Of a stretch of DNA of 24,504 nucleotides, positions 11,292 through 24,345 are shown in pieces. The notes beneath the pieces are model-generated. The model had not been told where the DNA came from. It saw only the letters and a list, made by a program, of their open reading frames with translations, and ran no database searches. The DNA is taken from the IMG/VR virus record IMGVR_UViG_3300011114_000573, positions 1-24,504 of that record; one strand, written 5' to 3'. The number at the start of each line of letters is the position of its first letter. Position 1 is the first letter of the stretch. The position numbers and the translations under genes were made by a program. The stretch comes from a virus.

Positions 11292-11311
11292 GCCCAGTTA
11301 TGTTGATTATA
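11292..11311 (-). promoter_or_regulatory. Promoter with TAACTGGGC start element (fibre unit)
   Basis: On the minus strand, a perfect TATAAT (11311-11306) is followed by five bases and TAACTGGGC (11300-11292), then AGGA and the ATG of the 662-aa fibre gene. The -10 box overlaps the stop of the upstream glycosyltransferase-like gene, and the -35 region, which is weak, lies inside that gene. Confidence 0.7.
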
Positions 11312-12008
11312 TACTATTAAGTGTCTTTATTATACCATTATCGCATCGAACAATTTTCTTCTCACTATTATCATTGTATTTTATAGCGTTTGTATTGCTG
11401 CCGCCAGATATAGTTTCGTGTCGTTCATGGTATTGGTGTGTGGCACGAATATCATCTCTCACTTCAAAAGGCAACTTTGCTCGTTTCCAGCGTTCGCCAA
11501 AATCATTGTCCTCGTAAGCATAGCCCTTCATAAAGTCTTCGTCCCAACCATTTATTTTTAATATATCTTCTTTCCTGAACATAGCAAGGAAATACATAGC
11601 AGGTGTTTCACCTCTAAATGTAGTGCTGACCAATACACTTAAGTTACTGTTTATGTCTTGGTCATCTACGGAGCAGACAATGTTCTTGTCTAACAAATCG
11701 CTGAGTTGTTCCAGTACCTCTGTTGTAGGTTTAACTTCTGGGCTTGTGATTATGATGTTATCGTACTTAGACTCTCTAACACCTATGTTAAACGCTTTAC
11801 TGGGGTTGAATCCGATACTGTGTTTATAGGGAATAATTCGTACATCTTTCATCAACTTATTATCATCTAAATAACGCCCTATTTGTAACTCACTTCTAGT
11901 AGGAATAATAAACTCTTTAACCTGTGGCATTTCATCATAGATTAGTTTAGTTACTTTGAACTGCTCTAACCTATTTGTGTCCATTGGCATAATTATTGAG
12001 AAAGACAT
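11307..12008 (-). CDS. GT-A glycosyltransferase-like protein, last gene of sugar cassette
   Basis: A 233-aa protein with a GT-A-like beginning (SFSIIMPMDT), a typical sugar-nucleotide-transferase helix near 63-77 (IGFNPSKAFNIGV) and, at 154-174, the pattern GWDEDF-x-x-x-YAYEDNDFGERW. That pattern is characteristic of the acceptor-side region of GT7/GT27-type galactosaminyl- or galactosyltransferases. The position where a metal-binding DxD would be expected (about 86-92) reads TSPEV, so metal-dependent activity is uncertain. The ATG overlaps the upstream TAA (TAATG), with a strong GAGGAG five bases before it. It closes the sugar operon and is directly followed by the fibre promoter. Sugar specificity cannot be told. 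Confidence 0.6.
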   Translation of the reverse strand: MSFSIIMPMDTNRLEQFKVTKLIYDEMPQVKEFIIPTRSELQIGRYLDDNKLMKDVRIIPYKHSIGFNPSKAFNIGVRESKYDNIIITSPEVKPTTEVLEQLSDLLDKNIVCSVDDQDINSNLSVLVSTTFRGETPAMYFLAMFRKEDILKINGWDEDFMKGYAYEDNDFGERWKRAKLPFEVRDDIRATHQYHERHETISGGSNTNAIKYNDNSEKKIVRCDNGIIKTLNSI

Positions 12009-12376
12009 TATAACTCCTCTGCAAATGTATCTACATCTTTTTTATTAAATTGCTCATCACACCATATCATACAAATACAACCATCGTCAGTAGCAGTAAT
12101 TCTATGTGTATGGTTGGGTGGAATAGTAGCAGTCATTGGCTTGAACCCTGAAAGTTGAGCACTCATCACGTCGCCAGTCTGTCTGTTCTTTGAGTCTATT
12201 GTTGCAGAACCATACATAACTAGGAAATGCTCTGTTTTTCGTTGGTGGTAGTGATTGCCTCTAGTTTCAGTAGGGTTGATTATGATATACGAAACTTGTC
12301 CGTCGTTCGGTAACTTAAACGCTTCTATGAAAGAACCTCTGGTGTCTTTTTTAACTTCTAGTGGAGATAGTTTCAT
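12008..12376 (-). CDS. Stand-alone cupin similar to the C-terminal domain of CapF/FnlB
   Basis: A 122-aa single-domain cupin. Counted from the upstream GTG at 12385, it has D14-T-R-G-S-F, then TRGNHYH with His45 and His47, Glu52, and IPPNHTH with His94. These give the HxH(x4)E...H metal site. The pattern (RGxFxE, GQxS, TRGNHYHxxKxExFLV, IPPxxTHxI, W-x-x-E-x-F...DT) matches, from memory, the cupin half of CapF/WbjC/FnlB, the bifunctional enzyme of UDP-L-FucNAc synthesis. There the cupin epimerises C3 of the 4-keto intermediate before an N-terminal reductase acts. That reductase domain is absent here. A WxcM-type sugar isomerase is the alternative. I chose the ATG at 12376, whose ATGA overlaps the previous stop; GTG at 12385 is possible. 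Confidence 0.7.
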   Translation of the reverse strand: MKLSPLEVKKDTRGSFIEAFKLPNDGQVSYIIINPTETRGNHYHQRKTEHFLVMYGSATIDSKNRQTGDVMSAQLSGFKPMTATIPPNHTHRITATDDGCICMIWCDEQFNKKDVDTFAEEL

Positions 12377-13470
12377 TTTTGCCACACATACTTATTAACA
12401 TACGGAGTGTAGCCTAAAACTACTTTTAGAACTCTGTCAGAACAGTTATCTACGTTATACCCATCAGGAATAGTGGTAGGGGTTTCTATAATTTCTAGGC
12501 AACTTAAGATATTCTCTTTATTAACCCCTGTCATCAGGATAGAGCCAGCGTCAGTAGCTTCAGCTCGTTCGTGGGCATTTCTAATAGTTATAGCAGGGAA
12601 ACCTAGTATTGCTGATTCTTCTGCAATAGTACCAGAGTCAGAGATTACGCACTTAGCGTTCATTTGTAGTTTATTGTAGTCCAAGTAGCCTAGTGGTTCT
12701 ACAAACTTAACTCTTTTGTCTAATCTTATGCCTTCTAGTTTTTTTCTAAGTCGTGGGTGGGTTGAAACAATTACAGGCAATTCGTACTTCTTGGCAATAG
12801 CGTCTAGTGTGTCTAGTAAAATAGTTAGATTCTCTGGTATCTCGGTATTTTCATCTCTGTGTAAACTGACTAGAAAGTAGGAAACTAAAGCAGTTTTAAG
12901 ACCCATATCTTCTAGCACAGAACTTGCTTTTATCTTGTCTATATGTTTATTAAACACTTCTTTCATTGGACTACCCATTATGAATAGTCGGTCTTTAGCT
13001 ATACCCTCATCTCTTAGGTACAGTCGTTGTCCCTGCGTGTAAACCAGATTTACGTCAGATATGTGGTCCATTATTCTACGGTTTATTTCCTCTGGAACAT
13101 TGTCGTCAAAACACCTGTTGCCTGCTTCTAGGTGAAACAGTGGTATCTTCATCCTTTTAGCGATAATGCCACTCAAAGCTGAGTTAGTATCACCAAGTAT
13201 AACTACTGCGTCAGGTTCGTATAGTTTAAGCATCTTCTCTACTTCAAACATTATATTACCAACTGTTTCGGCTAAACTGTCTCCCTTGGTGTCAAGAATA
13301 TGGTCTGGGTGGCGTAAGTCTAGGTCTTTATAGAATATCTCATTTAACGTGTAGTCATAATTCTGACCAGTGTGTATAAAGGTATGCTCGGTGTGTTTGT
13401 CCAGCTTCTTGATTATCTCGGACATCTTTATTATTTCTGGGCGAGTACCCACGATTGACATAATTTTCAC
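12373..13470 (-). CDS. UDP-sugar 2-epimerase, CapG/FnlC (WecB superfamily)
   Basis: A 365-aa protein of full family length. Conserved blocks include VGTRPEIIK (7-15), HTGQNYD (33-39), LGDTNSAL (92-99), HLEAGNRC (113-120), SLHRDEN (202-208) and SDSGTIAEES (277-286), as in UDP-GlcNAc 2-epimerases. The C-terminal Tyr-Thr-x-Tyr-Val-Asn-Lys-x-Val-Trp ending and the GNRCFD variant fit the WbjD/CapG/FnlC branch, which converts UDP-L-PneNAc to UDP-L-FucNAc, better than WecB itself. It works in the cytoplasm on nucleotide sugars. The start is GTG (GTGA overlap with the upstream stop) with AAGGA six bases before it. The neighbouring CapE-like and cupin genes support the L-FucNAc assignment. Confidence 0.8.
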   Translation of the reverse strand: MKIMSIVGTRPEIIKMSEIIKKLDKHTEHTFIHTGQNYDYTLNEIFYKDLDLRHPDHILDTKGDSLAETVGNIMFEVEKMLKLYEPDAVVILGDTNSALSGIIAKRMKIPLFHLEAGNRCFDDNVPEEINRRIMDHISDVNLVYTQGQRLYLRDEGIAKDRLFIMGSPMKEVFNKHIDKIKASSVLEDMGLKTALVSYFLVSLHRDENTEIPENLTILLDTLDAIAKKYELPVIVSTHPRLRKKLEGIRLDKRVKFVEPLGYLDYNKLQMNAKCVISDSGTIAEESAILGFPAITIRNAHERAEATDAGSILMTGVNKENILSCLEIIETPTTIPDGYNVDNCSDRVLKVVLGYTPYVNKYVWQK

Positions 13471-14363
13471 AATAAATCCTTTACTGCTTTAACGTCTAAT
13501 CTACTAGTATTCTCTGAGGTAAAAGCCATAGTTTCAGCCTCAACTCCCACACTAAAATACTGGTCATAGTTCATACCCCGTGAATCAGGTTTTACTCTGT
13601 AATAAGTACCCATATCTTCTGTTCGTAACATTTCTTCTGCTGATACCAAAGTTTCGTGCATCTTCTCTCCGTGTCTTATACCAATAACTTTGTAATCTTC
13701 TGCGATAGATAGTGCAAGGGTTTCCATAGTACAAGCAGGTGCTTTTCTTACAAATAACTCACCAGGTTCTCCTTTTTCTAAAGCATACATTACTAAATCT
13801 ATTGACTCATCTAGCGACATTAAGAACCTAGTCATATTTGGGTTTGTAACAAGTAAGGGTAAACCTTGTTTGTAACGTTCTTCCCAGATAGGAATTATTG
13901 AACCTCTTGAACGCATTACATTTCCGTACCTAGTTACTAAAGCACCCTTAGAGATAGCCAACTTCTCCATCATAGCTTTAGACACACCCATAGCGTTTAT
14001 TGGATAAACAGCTTTGTCTGACGATAGGCAGACTACTCTAGCACCAGCCTTTAATCCAGCATCTATAACGTGTTCTGCACCAAGTATGTTTGTCTTGACT
14101 GCTTCAAATGGAAAGAACTCACAGCCAGGCACTTGTTTGAGAGCGGCTGCGTGGAATACACTGTCCTGTCCAGCCACAACTTCTCCAACCCTACTTCTAT
14201 CTCTTACATCACCTATCTCATATCTAACGTTGGGGTATTCTTTGCGCATTTCAAATTGTTTATTTTCGTCACGACTAAACACTGTTAGTTCGTGTTCGTC
14301 TTTGTATCGTTTGACGAAAGCATTACCAAAAGAACCAGTACCGCCTGTGATAAGTATTTTCAT
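13467..14363 (-). CDS. UDP-GlcNAc 4,6-dehydratase/5-epimerase, CapE/FnlA-like
   Basis: A 298-aa extended short-chain dehydrogenase/reductase. The NAD(P)-binding GGTGSFG lies at 7-13, HAAALKQVP at 71-79, SSDKAVYPINAMGVSK at 114-129, RYGNV at 145-149, and a C-terminal GIRHGEKMHE plus R-x-E-D-M-G-x-Y-Y-R-V. Where most family members have YxxxK, it has M125-x-x-x-K129, the substitution also known in CapE-type enzymes. The CEFFPxEAVKTN block and the C-terminal SxNTxRLDV are typical of WbjB/FnlA/CapE. At 298 aa it is somewhat shorter than the roughly 340 usual. The product would be a 4-keto-6-deoxy UDP sugar, the first step towards UDP-L-FucNAc. It has AAGGG upstream and an ATGA overlap with the preceding gene. 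Confidence 0.82.
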   Translation of the reverse strand: MKILITGGTGSFGNAFVKRYKDEHELTVFSRDENKQFEMRKEYPNVRYEIGDVRDRSRVGEVVAGQDSVFHAAALKQVPGCEFFPFEAVKTNILGAEHVIDAGLKAGARVVCLSSDKAVYPINAMGVSKAMMEKLAISKGALVTRYGNVMRSRGSIIPIWEERYKQGLPLLVTNPNMTRFLMSLDESIDLVMYALEKGEPGELFVRKAPACTMETLALSIAEDYKVIGIRHGEKMHETLVSAEEMLRTEDMGTYYRVKPDSRGMNYDQYFSVGVEAETMAFTSENTSRLDVKAVKDLL

Positions 14364-15073
14364 TTTAACCCTTCTATGTATTTTACTTGCTCATCGTAAC
14401 CACGGTCAAACATTGTCTTCTTGTAATAGTCTTTATAGTCTTTCCAGTTAGTCTTGTCTGCAAAAGTATAACTTAGTCTTTCGTCCATATGTCCTACCAG
14501 CCACCCTTCGTTTTTAATTTGCCGAGAAAACCTAGTGTCTTCTTGTAACTTACTATTAGAACCTTCCCACGGTGTTTCATCATATCTTGCCCCTGTATCC
14601 CATATTGTGCGACGTATGATATTTGGACCACCGACGCATCCAGGAAACTCTATTAACCCCATATTATTATAATACTGTGGAACTTTGTTTTCTCCACCAT
14701 CAAAATCTAATCCCAACTGTCCTAGTCGGTCTATCTCAATAAAGTATTCCTCTGCCCTAGCGTCCCACCCTTTTTCAAAGTGCATATCATTGTCTAATCT
14801 CATTAGGTGGGTGGCTTGTGGGTAATCTTTTAATCCCTCAGTCCAGCCAATGTTACAAGCTTTGCCAGGGTAGTAGTTCTTTGGATTAAGAATAAGTTTA
14901 TCTATGCGTCCTCGTTTCTTTAGACTCTGTAACGCTTTCTGTGTGCCGTCAGTAGAATTGTTATCAACAACCACTAAGTAATAGGGTGATTGTATTGTGG
15001 CAAATAAACTCCGTAGTGTTTTATTTGTATAGTCTAGGCGTTCGTAGGTGATTAGACAGATTAAAAGCTTCAT
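14360..15073 (-). CDS. Family 2 glycosyltransferase (GT-A)
   Basis: A 237-aa protein with a clear GT2 signature: an N-terminal LLICLITYERLDYTNKTL strand-helix, VVDNNSTDGT at 36-44 for nucleotide binding, the helix around PGKACNIGW (69-77), and a metal-binding D94-N-D96 in LMRLDNDMHF. A later GPNIIRR...W segment and E-D at about 178-180 fit the acceptor/catalytic-base region. No transmembrane segments are visible, so it is probably a soluble or peripheral cytoplasmic enzyme using a nucleotide sugar. It overlaps its neighbours by ATGA on both sides, with GAG-type spacing upstream. It most likely attaches a sugar made by the downstream epimerases, but donor and acceptor are unknown. Confidence 0.78.
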   Translation of the reverse strand: MKLLICLITYERLDYTNKTLRSLFATIQSPYYLVVVDNNSTDGTQKALQSLKKRGRIDKLILNPKNYYPGKACNIGWTEGLKDYPQATHLMRLDNDMHFEKGWDARAEEYFIEIDRLGQLGLDFDGGENKVPQYYNNMGLIEFPGCVGGPNIIRRTIWDTGARYDETPWEGSNSKLQEDTRFSRQIKNEGWLVGHMDERLSYTFADKTNWKDYKDYYKKTMFDRGYDEQVKYIEGLK

Positions 15074-15900
15074 ATTTCTATCTCATTCATATCTATTATA
15101 GTAAACCGTTTGGGAGGGTAGGTTGCTAATCCTTGTGCTACTAGGCTGTCTGCGTGCTTACGAGAGGTTGTAACACCCCCACTAGGCGTATCAACAACCA
15201 CTAGCTTAGTTTTAGCCCCCAAAGCCACTGGCTGGGCTTGTAGTGCTTTAAGGCGCATATTCTTAACTACCTTAGTCCACACTTCAATTTTATGAGCACC
15301 ATTATTAGAACCACTATCGCCCAGAGCAATTAGTTTGCGTTGTCCTAGTTTAATAGGCAGAACCTTAATAACAATTCCATTGTTCCAAAGTTTTATTGAA
15401 TAGGTTATGTCGTGCAATCCATAGCCATCAACATCACCGTCTAGTGCCACAAGTTTAACTGCTTCACCATAGTTAAGTATTGACCAGCGTATCTTATCTG
15501 TAAAATACGGAGCTTTAAGATTATTAAAGATTTTGCGTTTAACAAGCAAGCAACCAGTTCCACAAAACACTACACTTCCACCACCATCATAAAATACCGA
15601 ACCTCGTCCAGTTTTTGTAACAGGGTAATCACAGGTAATAGCGTTTGCATTCTCAGCCAACAAATCTTGTAAAATGCCGTCTGGTAATACCATATCATCT
15701 TCCACGAACCAAAGATGAGAAATAGATTTATCTTTTAGAGCCAGTTGTGTTGGTGTTTCAAAACACTCAGGAATTGGCTTACCGTGAGAAAAGAAAAACT
15801 TGTGGGGTATGCCCTTTAGGTTTCTAAGTATCTCGTCAGCAGTCTTGGAAAAGATTAACCCTCTACTCGGTAGAATAATTGCGACTTTAACGGACGACAC
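15070..15900 (-). CDS. Glycosyltransferase-like protein, second of a tandem paralogous pair
   Basis: A GT-A-like protein of about 276 aa, paralogous to the gene just upstream. Both share AIILPSRGL-x-F near the N-terminus, PECF-x-x-PT, a metal-site EDDM (about 67-70 here), GLHD-x-x-x-x, and GQRKL-x-x-LG followed by GxHKIE-x-W/L-T. A C-terminal tail of about 60 residues, absent from the paralogue, begins after AKTKLVVVD. I chose the GTG at 15900 because GGAGAG lies exactly six bases upstream and the overlap with the preceding gene shrinks to 14 bases. An ATG at 15918 would add six residues. It is in the same operon as the sugar-nucleotide genes. Donor and acceptor are unknown. Confidence 0.65.
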   Translation of the reverse strand: MSSVKVAIILPSRGLIFSKTADEILRNLKGIPHKFFFSHGKPIPECFETPTQLALKDKSISHLWFVEDDMVLPDGILQDLLAENANAITCDYPVTKTGRGSVFYDGGGSVVFCGTGCLLVKRKIFNNLKAPYFTDKIRWSILNYGEAVKLVALDGDVDGYGLHDITYSIKLWNNGIVIKVLPIKLGQRKLIALGDSGSNNGAHKIEVWTKVVKNMRLKALQAQPVALGAKTKLVVVDTPSGGVTTSRKHADSLVAQGLATYPPKRFTIIDMNEIEI

Positions 15901-16738
15901 TAAAATCTCTCCCATCATTTAAGTACGGTTGGTCATTATCGTCATAAGAGATAAATGGCGGTATATCTTCCCAGAACTTAACGTTTTGTACTCTATTCAT
16001 AGCACCTAGAAATAACTCAGAGTTTTCTGGAGTAATCATACCCGACACAAGGTTCTCACCTACTTCAGTCAGTTCAATTATTTTATGCTGACCCTGATTA
16101 GAGTGTATCTCTCCAAGTTGTTCTAGTTTACGCTGTCCAGCTTTTTGTTTCATTGGCATAATAGGTACACCAGCAGAGTAAAGCACCATACCAAAGTTTA
16201 AGTCGTGTAATCCATAGAATATCTTAGTAAGTTTGCGTGGCCAGAAATGTATTGTGTCTTTATCTATAAATGGATCAAATGTTCTGTCTGTGCGCCAGAT
16301 TGGTTTTTCAAACTGTTCTAGCACTTCTCTGGCTACAAGCATAAAACCAGTTCCAGTCCAGTACGCAAATCCATTAGGGTCGTGTAAACAAGTGGAATCG
16401 CCATTCTGCTGAAACGGATAATCTAAAGCTGTAACAGGATAGTTTTTATTAAACATTCTATTTAGAACACCTCTAGGAATAATCATGTCATCTTCAACTA
16501 TTAAAACAGCGAAGTTATCTTTATCAGCTAAAGCTCTCTCAGTTGGTTCGTTAAAACACTCTGGTAATCCTTTTTCGTGTGACCAGTATATTTCGTAGTC
16601 TAGCCCTTCAAGCTCGCCTAAAAGTTCCTCTAATGTTTCAGAGAACATTAACCCTCTACTAGGTAAAATAACTGCTAGTTTAGTAGCTTCTGGCTTAGTA
16701 GCCGTCGGGATTGTCTGATGCTTTTGTTTCACCGACAT
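15887..16738 (-). CDS. Glycosyltransferase-like protein, first of a tandem paralogous pair
   Basis: A 283-aa protein with an N-terminal Thr/Lys-rich extension (1-20), LAVILPSRGLMF (21-32), a GLPECFNEPT segment near 57-66, and V-E82-D-D-M in a hydrophobic strand as the likely metal/nucleotide-sugar site. GTGFMLVAREV (about 129-139), GLHDLNFGM and the GQRKLEQLG...GQHKIIELT block are shared with the next gene. This is the pattern of soluble GT-A enzymes, though not a standard GT2 signature. Its start lies 44 bases inside the upstream gene. No better start was found, although a GTG two codons in is possible. The pair probably arose by tandem duplication followed by strong divergence. Confidence 0.65.
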   Translation of the reverse strand: MSVKQKHQTIPTATKPEATKLAVILPSRGLMFSETLEELLGELEGLDYEIYWSHEKGLPECFNEPTERALADKDNFAVLIVEDDMIIPRGVLNRMFNKNYPVTALDYPFQQNGDSTCLHDPNGFAYWTGTGFMLVAREVLEQFEKPIWRTDRTFDPFIDKDTIHFWPRKLTKIFYGLHDLNFGMVLYSAGVPIMPMKQKAGQRKLEQLGEIHSNQGQHKIIELTEVGENLVSGMITPENSELFLGAMNRVQNVKFWEDIPPFISYDDNDQPYLNDGRDFSVVR

Positions 16739-23047: not shown

Positions 23048-23392
23048 TCATGCGTAACGGCAGCCTTTCTGCATACAGCGTCCTCTATCGTCTAAGGGTA
23101 TGCCATGTATCTTACATAGTTTAACAGCGTCAGCTGCAATACCAATAGATTCTTTAAGTTTATGGAATATCTCTGCTTTAGGAGTTACTACTCCAACAGG
23201 AGTTTGAATATTACTAGGTACATTTACCGAGTAGTTTATTTTGGGAGCTTGGACGACAGTCCCTACGATTCCAACTGCAGTTAATGAGTAAGCAACTCCG
23301 CCACGCTCTATCTCAACTTTATCGCCATGTAAAGCAGCATCAAAGCAGTTCTTTAATTCTTTCCTGAAGTTACCTACTGTCATGTACATCAT
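23048..23392 (-). CDS. Phd/YefM-like DNA-binding protein with C-terminal zinc-binding motif, no toxin partner
   Basis: A protein of about 114 aa. Residues 4-40 (MTVGNFRKELKNCFDAA, GDKVEIERGGVAYSLTAV) fit the Phd/YefM antitoxin fold: a start of strand, the Phe-Arg-x-x-Leu helix, then Glu-x-Arg-Gly-Gly and a strand. The middle (45-75) is Val/Pro/Asn-rich. The C-terminus has C93-x-x-H96 ... C106-x4-C111, a likely zinc site not part of classical YefM. No toxin gene is adjacent; terS follows. An ATG at 23440 would read through the operator repeats and precede the likely transcription start, so the start at 23392 (or 23383) is preferred. No clear ribosome binding site is visible. Role inferred: autoregulator of the leftward arm. 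Confidence 0.65.
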   Translation of the reverse strand: MMYMTVGNFRKELKNCFDAALHGDKVEIERGGVAYSLTAVGIVGTVVQAPKINYSVNVPSNIQTPVGVVTPKAEIFHKLKESIGIAADAVKLCKIHGIPLDDRGRCMQKGCRYA

Positions 23393-23439
23393 TGTACACG
23401 TTTGTACATAGTTGTACACGTTTGTACATAGTAAGTACA
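23383..23439 (-). repeat. Operator-like array of TGTACA palindromes, 10-bp period
   Basis: Five exact TGTACA sites begin at 23383, 23393, 23403, 23413 and 23423, and a degenerate AGTACA at 23434 extends the row. Part of it is a perfect 20-bp tandem duplication (23392-23411 and 23412-23431). TGTACA is itself palindromic, and the 10-bp spacing puts all sites on one face of the helix. The array covers the likely start site and first codons of the YefM-like gene. TGTACA is the known core operator motif of YefM. Confidence 0.85.
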
Positions 23440-23465: not shown

Positions 23466-23878
23466 TACTTACTTAGTAAGTTCAATGTGTGGAGAGCTGA
23501 ATACAAATCTTTACCCTCACATAAAACTATACCCCCCTGTCATTTTAAGGGTTCCCTACCCCTGTTATTACAGATATATTTATTTATACCTTATGACCCC
23601 TGTTATACCCCTGTTACGCGTGGTGTAGGTATATTATACGGGTAATGATATCTATTCTAGCCCTGTATTGTGATGTATATTGCCTTGTATTACCTTGTAC
23701 CTGGATACACTGCTATTTATCTTACTATAATGTAACTGTTAGGTTTGAGCGGGAATGTGATAGTTTTGGGCGCTTTTGAGTATGTTTTGGCGTGTTTAAG
23801 TATGTTATATGGCTATTATAGTAGTTAGTAAGGTATGAGTGGATTGGGCGCTATTCTAGCAATTGCAGCGTCTAGCAG
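23466..23878. other. Divergent intergenic region, upstream part; no gene supported
   Basis: About 410 bases without a credible gene. It holds the ACCCCTGTTA iterons (23558-23616), a run of G-rich short repeats such as TTGGGCGCT at 23766 and 23844, CCTTGTA repeats around 23687-23700, and TCTAGCA at 23855 and 23871. The high density of short repeats next to DnaA boxes favours an origin or regulatory region over decayed coding sequence. Confidence 0.6.
23558..23616 (+). repeat. Iteron-like ACCCCTGTTA repeats
   Basis: Exact ACCCCTGTTA occurs at 23558-23567, 23596-23605 and 23607-23616, the last two 11 bp apart. A near copy, CCCCTGTCA, is at 23534-23542. Short directly repeated sites beside DnaA boxes resemble iterons bound by a phage or plasmid replication initiator, but no such initiator is encoded in the window. 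Confidence 0.5.
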
Positions 23879-23898
23879 TTATCCACAAGTTATCCACA
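23879..23898 (+). other. Pair of DnaA boxes, candidate replication origin
   Basis: Two perfect consensus TTATCCACA boxes (23879-23887 and 23890-23898), 11 bp apart, in the same orientation. An AT-rich stretch follows. They lie in the divergent intergenic region with iteron-like repeats upstream. Origin function is inferred. Confidence 0.7.
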
Positions 23899-23925
23899 AC
23901 CACCGCTATAATCATAATAATGTAC

Positions 23926-23954
23926 TTGACACTATCAATATAGTAAGATATACT
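23926..23954 (+). promoter_or_regulatory. Strong rightward promoter
   Basis: Perfect TTGACA (23926-23931), a 17-base spacer, and TATACT (23949-23954), close to the bacterial vegetative consensus. The start near 23961 leaves a leader of about 110 bases before the 90-aa gene. A TGTACT half-match to the array motif directly abuts the -35 box (23921-23926). It probably drives the rightward, possibly early, genes. Confidence 0.82.
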
Positions 23955-24072
23955 TGACAACAGATAAGTGCAAACAATGCGTTTATCACACCTTAACAAT
24001 TCAATCAATCACTCGTTCGTCAGTCTCGGCAACACCTGATAAAGTGTATAAACTTATTAGAAGGACATCACA

Positions 24073-24345
24073 ATGACAACAACCAACTATGCAATAGTGA
24101 CAGTTTTCAACCTACCCGAAAGACGAGGTAACGAACGACACTACACTGAAGTACGAACATATGAGTATCTAGAAGACGCTAGAGACGACATAAAGCACGA
24201 CAGTGTAAGCGTTCACAAAGAAGCCGAAGAAGCTATGAACCGATACGAAGTAAATAATGAACCATACCACCTAGAAGTAGTAAAACTCCGTTGGAGTGGC
24301 AACTACTCTGAAGTAGCCAAAAGCTACACTCCTTGGTTCAACTAA
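24073..24345 (+). CDS. Small rightward phage protein of unknown function
   Basis: A 90-aa protein, unrecognised. It is mixed alpha/beta and charged: a strand TNYAIVTVFNLP, then Arg/Glu/Tyr-rich RHYTEVRTYEYLEDARDDI, an acidic helix KEAEEAMNRYE, and a final LEVVKLRWSGNYSEV strand. No DNA-binding or enzymatic motif is visible. AGAAGGA lies about eight bases before ATG, and a near-consensus promoter lies upstream. It is the only gene on the plus strand and the first of the rightward arm, the usual place for early host-takeover or regulatory proteins. That role is inferred from location only. Confidence 0.72.
   Translation: MTTTNYAIVTVFNLPERRGNERHYTEVRTYEYLEDARDDIKHDSVSVHKEAEEAMNRYEVNNEPYHLEVVKLRWSGNYSEVAKSYTPWFN

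Follow-up and report, generated by a model that had tools for sequence, protein, structure and literature searches.

DnaA boxes in helical register with an early promoter in a tailed phage that probably infects Saccharibacteria

The divergent region of the phage genome

The window analysed here is the whole of a virus record of 24,504 bases, in which genes of small-terminase, large-terminase, portal, capsid and tail type lie on the other strand from the early arm. In the divergent region between the two arms there are two perfect copies of TTATCCACA, the long-established canonical DnaA box (PMC11317965), both on the + strand, at 23879..23887 (box 1) and 23890..23898 (box 2). The boxes are 11 bp apart from start to start, leaving 2 bp between them, which is the spacing of a 'double box'. 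A preliminary description of this DNA had reported the pair, and its coordinates were correct, the 11 bp being the start-to-start distance. These are the sole perfect boxes in the whole window. When one mismatch is allowed, nine boxes are seen over the window where 7.6 are expected, so it is only the perfect tandem pair that is unusual.

Downstream of the boxes lies a near-consensus promoter, TTGACA-N17-TATACT (23926..23954, +), which reads into the rightward, early arm; its -35 is 38 bp downstream of box 1 and 27 bp downstream of box 2. Transcription from it would start at about 23961, and the first ORF of the arm (24073..24345, +; 90 aa) has no PHROGs match. A stretch of 78% AT (23908..23957) begins just downstream of the boxes and overlaps the promoter. 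Thus the AT-rich sequence and the strong promoter of the preliminary description are both there. The AT-rich DNA beside the boxes is a candidate unwinding element, but a weak indication of one, since the regions of the relatives likewise hold stretches of 70–86% AT.

Elsewhere in the window, within the late arm and between the capsid and tail genes, there is a block of genes that by eye are of sugar-nucleotide and glycosyltransferase-like type (11307-16738, −). The block is present in relatives too.

A conserved element beside the late-arm regulator gene

On the late-arm side of the region is a small regulator-like gene (23048..23383, −; 111 aa, ATG at 23383), which appears Phd-like by eye and has no Pfam match. 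Immediately upstream of it are TGTACA-rich direct and inverted repeats with an operator-like appearance (23383..23431), and upstream of the gene there is also a conserved non-coding core, TTTAAGGGTTCCCTACCCCTGTTA (23544..23567). The sequence ACCCCTGTTA occurs on the + strand at 23558, 23596 and 23607, the latter two (23596..23616) being 11 bp apart, as had been described, and CCCCTGTCA is found at 23534.

ACCCCTGTTA forms part of a conserved element, TTTAAGGGTTCCCTACCC(CTGTTA), the 18-base core of which is found exactly in eight viral stretches; L051, a relative considered further below, carries the AAGGGTTCCCTACCC part of it. Wherever genes were listed, the element lies close to a regulator gene judged RHH/Phd-like by eye, and the palindrome GTCGTACA...TTGTRCGAC often follows the element. 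In one relative (G008) the regulator lies away from the divergent region, and there the element is located between the regulator and a small-terminase-like gene. The element is nearly absent from 294 genomes of the class Saccharimonadia, with two matches at up to two mismatches, one of which is a phage contig. Among the relatives the ACCCCTGTTA repeats number from none to four, in both orientations and at spacings of 11, about 22 and 38, so that a regular array of direct repeats kept between relatives is lacking. The preliminary description had called these repeats iteron-like. We rejected them as origin iterons because they follow the conserved element upstream of the regulator gene and not the DnaA boxes. 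The TTTAAGGGTTCCCTACCCCTGTTA/ACCCCTGTTA element probably serves the late-arm regulator gene as an operator or as part of its promoter.

The phage family and its probable host

The phage family was gathered from metagenomic contigs by way of TerL. One contig (L002) is 99.4% identical to the window over 2.6 kb and extends 2.4 kb further right; as a near-copy it was excluded from the counts of relatives. The TerL proteins of the other members are 66–82% identical, and those of an outer group about 43%. In the main family an intergenic control region separates the late arm from an arm made up of small genes. No DNA match to a known phage was found; the capsid is nearest to those of cyanopodophages and TerL to assorted phages, all at less than 60% identity, and HTVC026P was examined as a close relative and ruled out.

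When 84,980 species genomes were scanned with the TerL alignment, 84 pattern stretches were obtained, two of which encode a relative. Both of these confirmed relatives come from Candidatus Saccharibacteria MAGs (L051, 78%; L052, 46%). Within the phylum, TerL matches were found in 4 of 379 genomes, two of them strong and two weak. The family probably infects Saccharibacteria, an assignment that rests on MAG contigs open to mis-binning.

Several other properties of the family were observed. Two contigs from different samples, L038 (G006) 1-2752 and L042 (G003), have the same starting base and 2,752 identical bases, and this shared start may be a genome end or a common assembly break. Each outer relative has a chaperonin (GroEL-like) gene (G403:37394-38953, G404:7984-9564, G405:40037-41593, the last also L124:37-1593), identified in G405 by Pfam Cpn60 (1.7e-38) and PHROGs GroEL and in the other two by sequence likeness. 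The exonuclease encoded at L038:6602-7378 (−) is closest to Mycobacterium and Gordonia phage exonucleases, at about 35% identity. Since Actinobacteria are hosts of Saccharibacteria, exchange of the exonuclease between phages of both partners is conceivable.

Recurrence of the box in control regions of relatives

A permutation test was carried out on control-region DNA from ten records: 11 stretches, 8,414 bases in all, that are divergent or lie upstream of the regulator. With seven copies, spread over six records, TTATCCACA ranked first among 1,680 letter permutations, for which the mean was 0.09 and the next best count three, the kinship of the records being ignored. Again ignoring kinship, 7 of the 14 perfect boxes of the ten records fall in the 3.7% of the sequence made up by the control-region stretches.

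Counted by relative, a perfect box is present in the region in 6 of 14 distinct relatives, the window included, and missing from the other eight. The 14 (W, G004, L006, G008, G003, G006, G012, L011, L051, G015, L010, L033, G400 and G401) hold the region at least partly, G015 and L033 being truncated there, and G400 and G401 were counted as box-free from a scan of the whole record. The promoter of L010 is preceded by TTATGCACA at about 40 bp, and in G003 and G006 the early promoter is near-consensus but lacks a perfect box. The permutation controls and the recurrence speak against chance as the source of the boxes. The preliminary description had named absence of the boxes in relatives among the observations that would count against its reading, and boxes are present in relatives.

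In the outer relative G403, all five perfect boxes (13313, 15334, 6919, 6192 and 10074) lie between listed ORFs. Some of them fall within promoter-like sequences or on their -35, which hints at both activating and repressing placements.

Helical register of boxes and promoters in the phages

For the analysis of geometry, promoters were defined mechanically as TTGAC[ATG], a spacing of 16–18 bp and TA...T with at most two mismatches to TATAAT. The 17 phage contigs (490,755 bases) contain 61 such promoters, and ten boxes are found in the 40 bp that precede a -35, compared with a mean of 0.045 and a next best of three for permuted 9-mers. The gaps from box to -35 are 27 and 38 bp in the window, 18 in G004, 23 in G012, 27 and 17 in L051 and 17 in L006, and in the outer relatives they are 26 and 28 (G403) and 26 (G404). 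The gaps cluster near 17, 27 and 38 bp, which corresponds to one helical face. Among the ten boxes G012 alone is out of register; there the early promoter begins approximately at the box, and the gap of 23 is measured to a promoter facing the opposite way. L011, which is outside the ten-box count, has a box at a gap of 26 from a weaker promoter. The orientation of the box differs among the phages.

Taking one box per promoter, the nine phage gaps match the phase found in the host class, described below (V-test p 0.0016), as do the six gaps of the core family alone (p 0.013). As expected for a DnaA-regulated promoter, perfect boxes lie no more than about 80 bp from a promoter of sigma70 type. 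On the nine gaps their position relative to the promoter is conserved, even though a perfect box is lacking in more than half of the 14 relatives. A helical register that is kept over one-turn shifts relative to the -35 is the signature of a factor touching RNA polymerase. When every viral contig is included, in-phase sites outnumber off-phase ones by a modest margin only (46 versus 30). The in-phase loci L207, L219 and L239 each match 10–15 proteins of the query phages, best to G403/G404; of the off-phase loci, L247 matches five, weakly, and two others match one.

DnaA-box promoters in Saccharimonadia

The pattern TTATCCACA-N10-40-TTGACA was searched in the 294 Saccharimonadia genomes. It gave 82 matches, including one phage site (G020:C64), in 70 of the 294 genomes, whereas the reversed control gave ten (control column counted by hand). 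The gaps peak at 15–19, 26–28 and 36–38. At a period of 10.5 they share a phase of 6.18 (R 0.516, Rayleigh p 3e-10, orthologous promoters being non-independent sites), that of the phages being about 6.0. The phase survives when the commonest gene family and the group with gaps of at least 36 are left out (38 sites, R 0.54, p 2e-5).

Sixty of the 82 sites were inspected, picked by listing order and strand, with most copies of the tmRNA-side promoter left out. With a cut of our own choosing (within 2 of 17, 27 or 38), 51 of the 60 are in phase and nine out of phase. A good -10 is present at 32 of the 51 in-phase sites, 2 of the 9 out-of-phase sites and 2 of 25 background TTGACA sequences. For reverse boxes the class genomes give a weaker excess, 40 matches spread over 36 genomes where the control has 16, and the gaps are not significantly phased (R 0.21, p 0.16). 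The phase of the forward sites was also not seen among 108 matches in 342 Patescibacteria genomes outside the class sample (R 0.16, p 0.07), although these are simply the genomes absent from that sample, itself drawn from a larger group, and some may be Saccharimonadia. Double boxes as a general host rule were rejected, since neighbour boxes 2–3 bp away gave a slight excess only (forward offset 11: mean 3.1 versus about 2.4 matches).

The genes downstream of the host sites include dnaA itself (Pfam Bac_DnaA 8e-62). The dnaA site is out of phase, with a gap of 23, and the region upstream of a host dnaA holds four boxes within 120 bp, two perfect and two with one mismatch. Other downstream genes encode secreted-looking proteins and proteins that by eye are NrdR-like and ribonucleotide-reductase-like. 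Provided that the host belongs to the Saccharibacteria, it both encodes DnaA and has promoters of this kind.

Two groups of host sites stand apart. A conserved 170-aa family, with no Pfam match above the cut-off, is downstream at 18 of the 60 inspected sites (e.g. L153:510-1022), and its box gap shifts by about one helical turn between genomes (15–18, 26–27 and some 20–21). L141, L142, L158 and L159 have a conserved promoter with a DnaA box 37–39 bp upstream of the -35, from which the transcript starts near GGGGTAGCTTCTGAATAAA and runs towards tmRNA, whose gene is on the other strand. As Rfam gave no match besides tmRNA, this transcript would be an unknown small RNA or a leader.

Replication genes and origin features

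Early-arm ORFs were scanned in sets of 38, 40 and 40. The matches listed include a PD-(D/E)XK exonuclease, NinG, RusA, methylases and glutaredoxin; G405, an outer relative, adds Rad52-like, chaperonin, polynucleotide kinase and RNA ligase proteins, and L051 has a RecA-like protein. Polymerase, replicative helicase and Rep are absent among the matches listed. One member of A2, an alignment of early-arm ORFs, matches the PHROGs 'DNA primase' family phrog_864 at 4.5e-17. The early-arm matches listed for the main family include neither an integrase nor a Rep initiator of the kind that the preliminary description had proposed to look for in the rightward arm, and the plasmid-like or temperate state that it suggested is not supported. 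G405 has a terminal repeat of 492 nt (98% identity) and is therefore probably complete. Its early arm has no ORF of polymerase size, and its ORFs of at least 300 aa are structural, lysis, RNA ligase or chaperonin genes, as judged by position or match and, for the structural ones, partly by eye.

DnaA-trios, for which the definition and yardstick are those of general knowledge, reach a longest run of one in the window and at most two elsewhere. A cluster of boxes of the kind expected at an origin is not seen, there being two in the window and one in most relatives, where the single box mostly has no near-match neighbour. Cumulative GC skew, which follows gene direction in these contigs, has its minimum in the divergent region in the window (23611) and in G006 (10945), and outside it in G012, G003, G008 and G004. 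The skew check put forward in the preliminary description is compatible with an origin here and with one elsewhere.

DISCUSSION

Boxes lie in helical register with promoters both in the phages and in the host class, and control of transcription therefore fits them better than an origin does. This register, taken together with the canonical box, the double-box spacing and the precedent of ori-lambda, leads us on balance to favour, from the sequence, the reading of the divergent region as a DnaA-responsive phage early promoter with a layout like that of the host DnaA-box promoters. It is more likely that DnaA controls phage genes there than that it simply marks a replication origin.

The main alternative, which we consider unlikely, is a DnaA-dependent origin at which host DnaA, bound to the two boxes, would melt the AT-rich DNA with the aid of early transcription and the host replisome would load with no need of a phage initiator. 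Such an origin would suit the perfect double box with its 2-bp spacing and adjoining 78% AT stretch, the early arms without initiator, helicase or polymerase among the matches listed (and, in G405, without a polymerase-size ORF) and the skew minima of the window and G006. However, the relatives are mostly single-boxed, whereas a host dnaA upstream region has four boxes in 120 bp, and the skew minimum lies elsewhere in the other four contigs. DnaA-trio runs do not exceed one in the window, L051, G403 and G404 carry boxes at two or more intergenic sites, and an origin does not predict the promoter register. Single boxes, the lack of DnaA-trios and the presence of boxes at several promoters argue against an origin as the main role. 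Hence, of the DnaA-dependent origin first proposed for this region, the involvement of DnaA stands as probable, while the origin as main role is disfavoured, the boxes tracking promoters in register.

The boxes could instead be a DnaA-dependent repressor or timing site, with the early genes held down until DnaA is removed or converted. DnaA-repressed promoters are known (PMC8203912), the G012 box is at the start of an early promoter and G403 boxes overlap promoter-like sequences by eye. Most boxes, though, are upstream of the -35, in phase and outside the RNA polymerase footprint, an arrangement that fits activation, and we give repression a rather low probability. It is very improbable that a phage Rep binds the ACCCCTGTTA repeats as the iterons of an origin of plasmid type: they are direct repeats, up to four at a spacing of about 22 bp in G004, but range from 0 to 4 copies in both orientations, no Rep is among the matches listed and the element stays beside the RHH/Phd-like regulator even where this is away from the divergent region (G008). 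A chance meeting of a box pair with promoter-like hexamers in AT-rich non-coding DNA can hardly be reconciled with the permutation controls, the recurrence in relatives and the host-matched register, despite the near-expected number of boxes with up to one mismatch (9 versus 7.6).

In the DnaA-responsive model, a small tailed phage with Saccharibacteria as its probable hosts would have its divergent control region here, and host DnaA would bind the TTATCCACA pair ahead of the early promoter. The box centres fall near -67 and -78, on the same face of the helix as the -35, and host DnaA bound there may contact RNA polymerase and so set early transcription, much as seems to happen at the DnaA-box promoters of the host. 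Early expression would then be tied to the replication state of the host. DnaA binding, activation and this coupling are all suggested by sequence features. As no initiator was recognised among the matches listed, the site may in addition help to start replication nearby by the host machinery. The ACCCCTGTTA repeats would be a separate element, probably the operator of the late-arm regulator.

More speculatively, Saccharibacteria might have a distinct class of promoters with DnaA boxes on one helical face at about -58, -68 or -78, and tailed phages without an initiator of their own might have adopted this layout, making the host initiator an activator of phage early transcription and, through that, of phage replication. 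We regard this wider proposal as tentative and somewhat doubtful. A helical-register rule common to the host class and the phages offers a testable geometry and a lead on DnaA control in Saccharibacteria. If the phages use the rule, expression of their early genes is coupled to the replication state of a hard-to-culture epibiont, and box–promoter geometry may help to assign phages to Saccharibacteria hosts.

Comparison with known systems

DnaA-regulated promoters are known; an early promoter of a phage that follows the helical-register rule of its host class is new as far as the literature was searched. In that search, which covered mainly titles and the starts of abstracts, nothing was recognised on DnaA-box promoters of Saccharibacteria or their phages. 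A set of 440 putative Saccharibacteria phages has been identified by CRISPR spacers (PMC10746230); these share their predicted host group with the window phage, control regions are not discussed in the portion of that paper drawn on here, and the word 'dnaa' occurs 0 times in its main text.

The phage control regions share DnaA boxes beside AT-rich DNA with bacterial origins of the oriC type. Unlike these, they have one or two boxes, no DnaA-trios and a promoter register.

Escherichia coli DnaA prefers a double box with 2 bp between the boxes, the same spacing as in the TTATCCACA pair of the window, and nrdA and dnaA are among its known targets (PMC11317965). The E. coli regulon consists of cellular promoters, whereas the window has a phage early promoter, and no helical register is given in the portion of PMC11317965 drawn on here. 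According to the same source, activation by DnaA is poorly understood even in E. coli.

Another close parallel is ori-lambda, where DnaA is reported to activate transcription (PMC8203912). As in the window, boxes for host DnaA lie near a phage promoter, DnaA is thought to contact RNA polymerase, and there is a link to phage replication (PMC8203912, PMC3985674). Phage lambda has its own initiators, O and P, whereas no initiator was recognised in the window phage. The DnaA-box-like sites of lambda are downstream of the pO promoter; the boxes of the window, in contrast, lie upstream of the -35 and in helical register with it.
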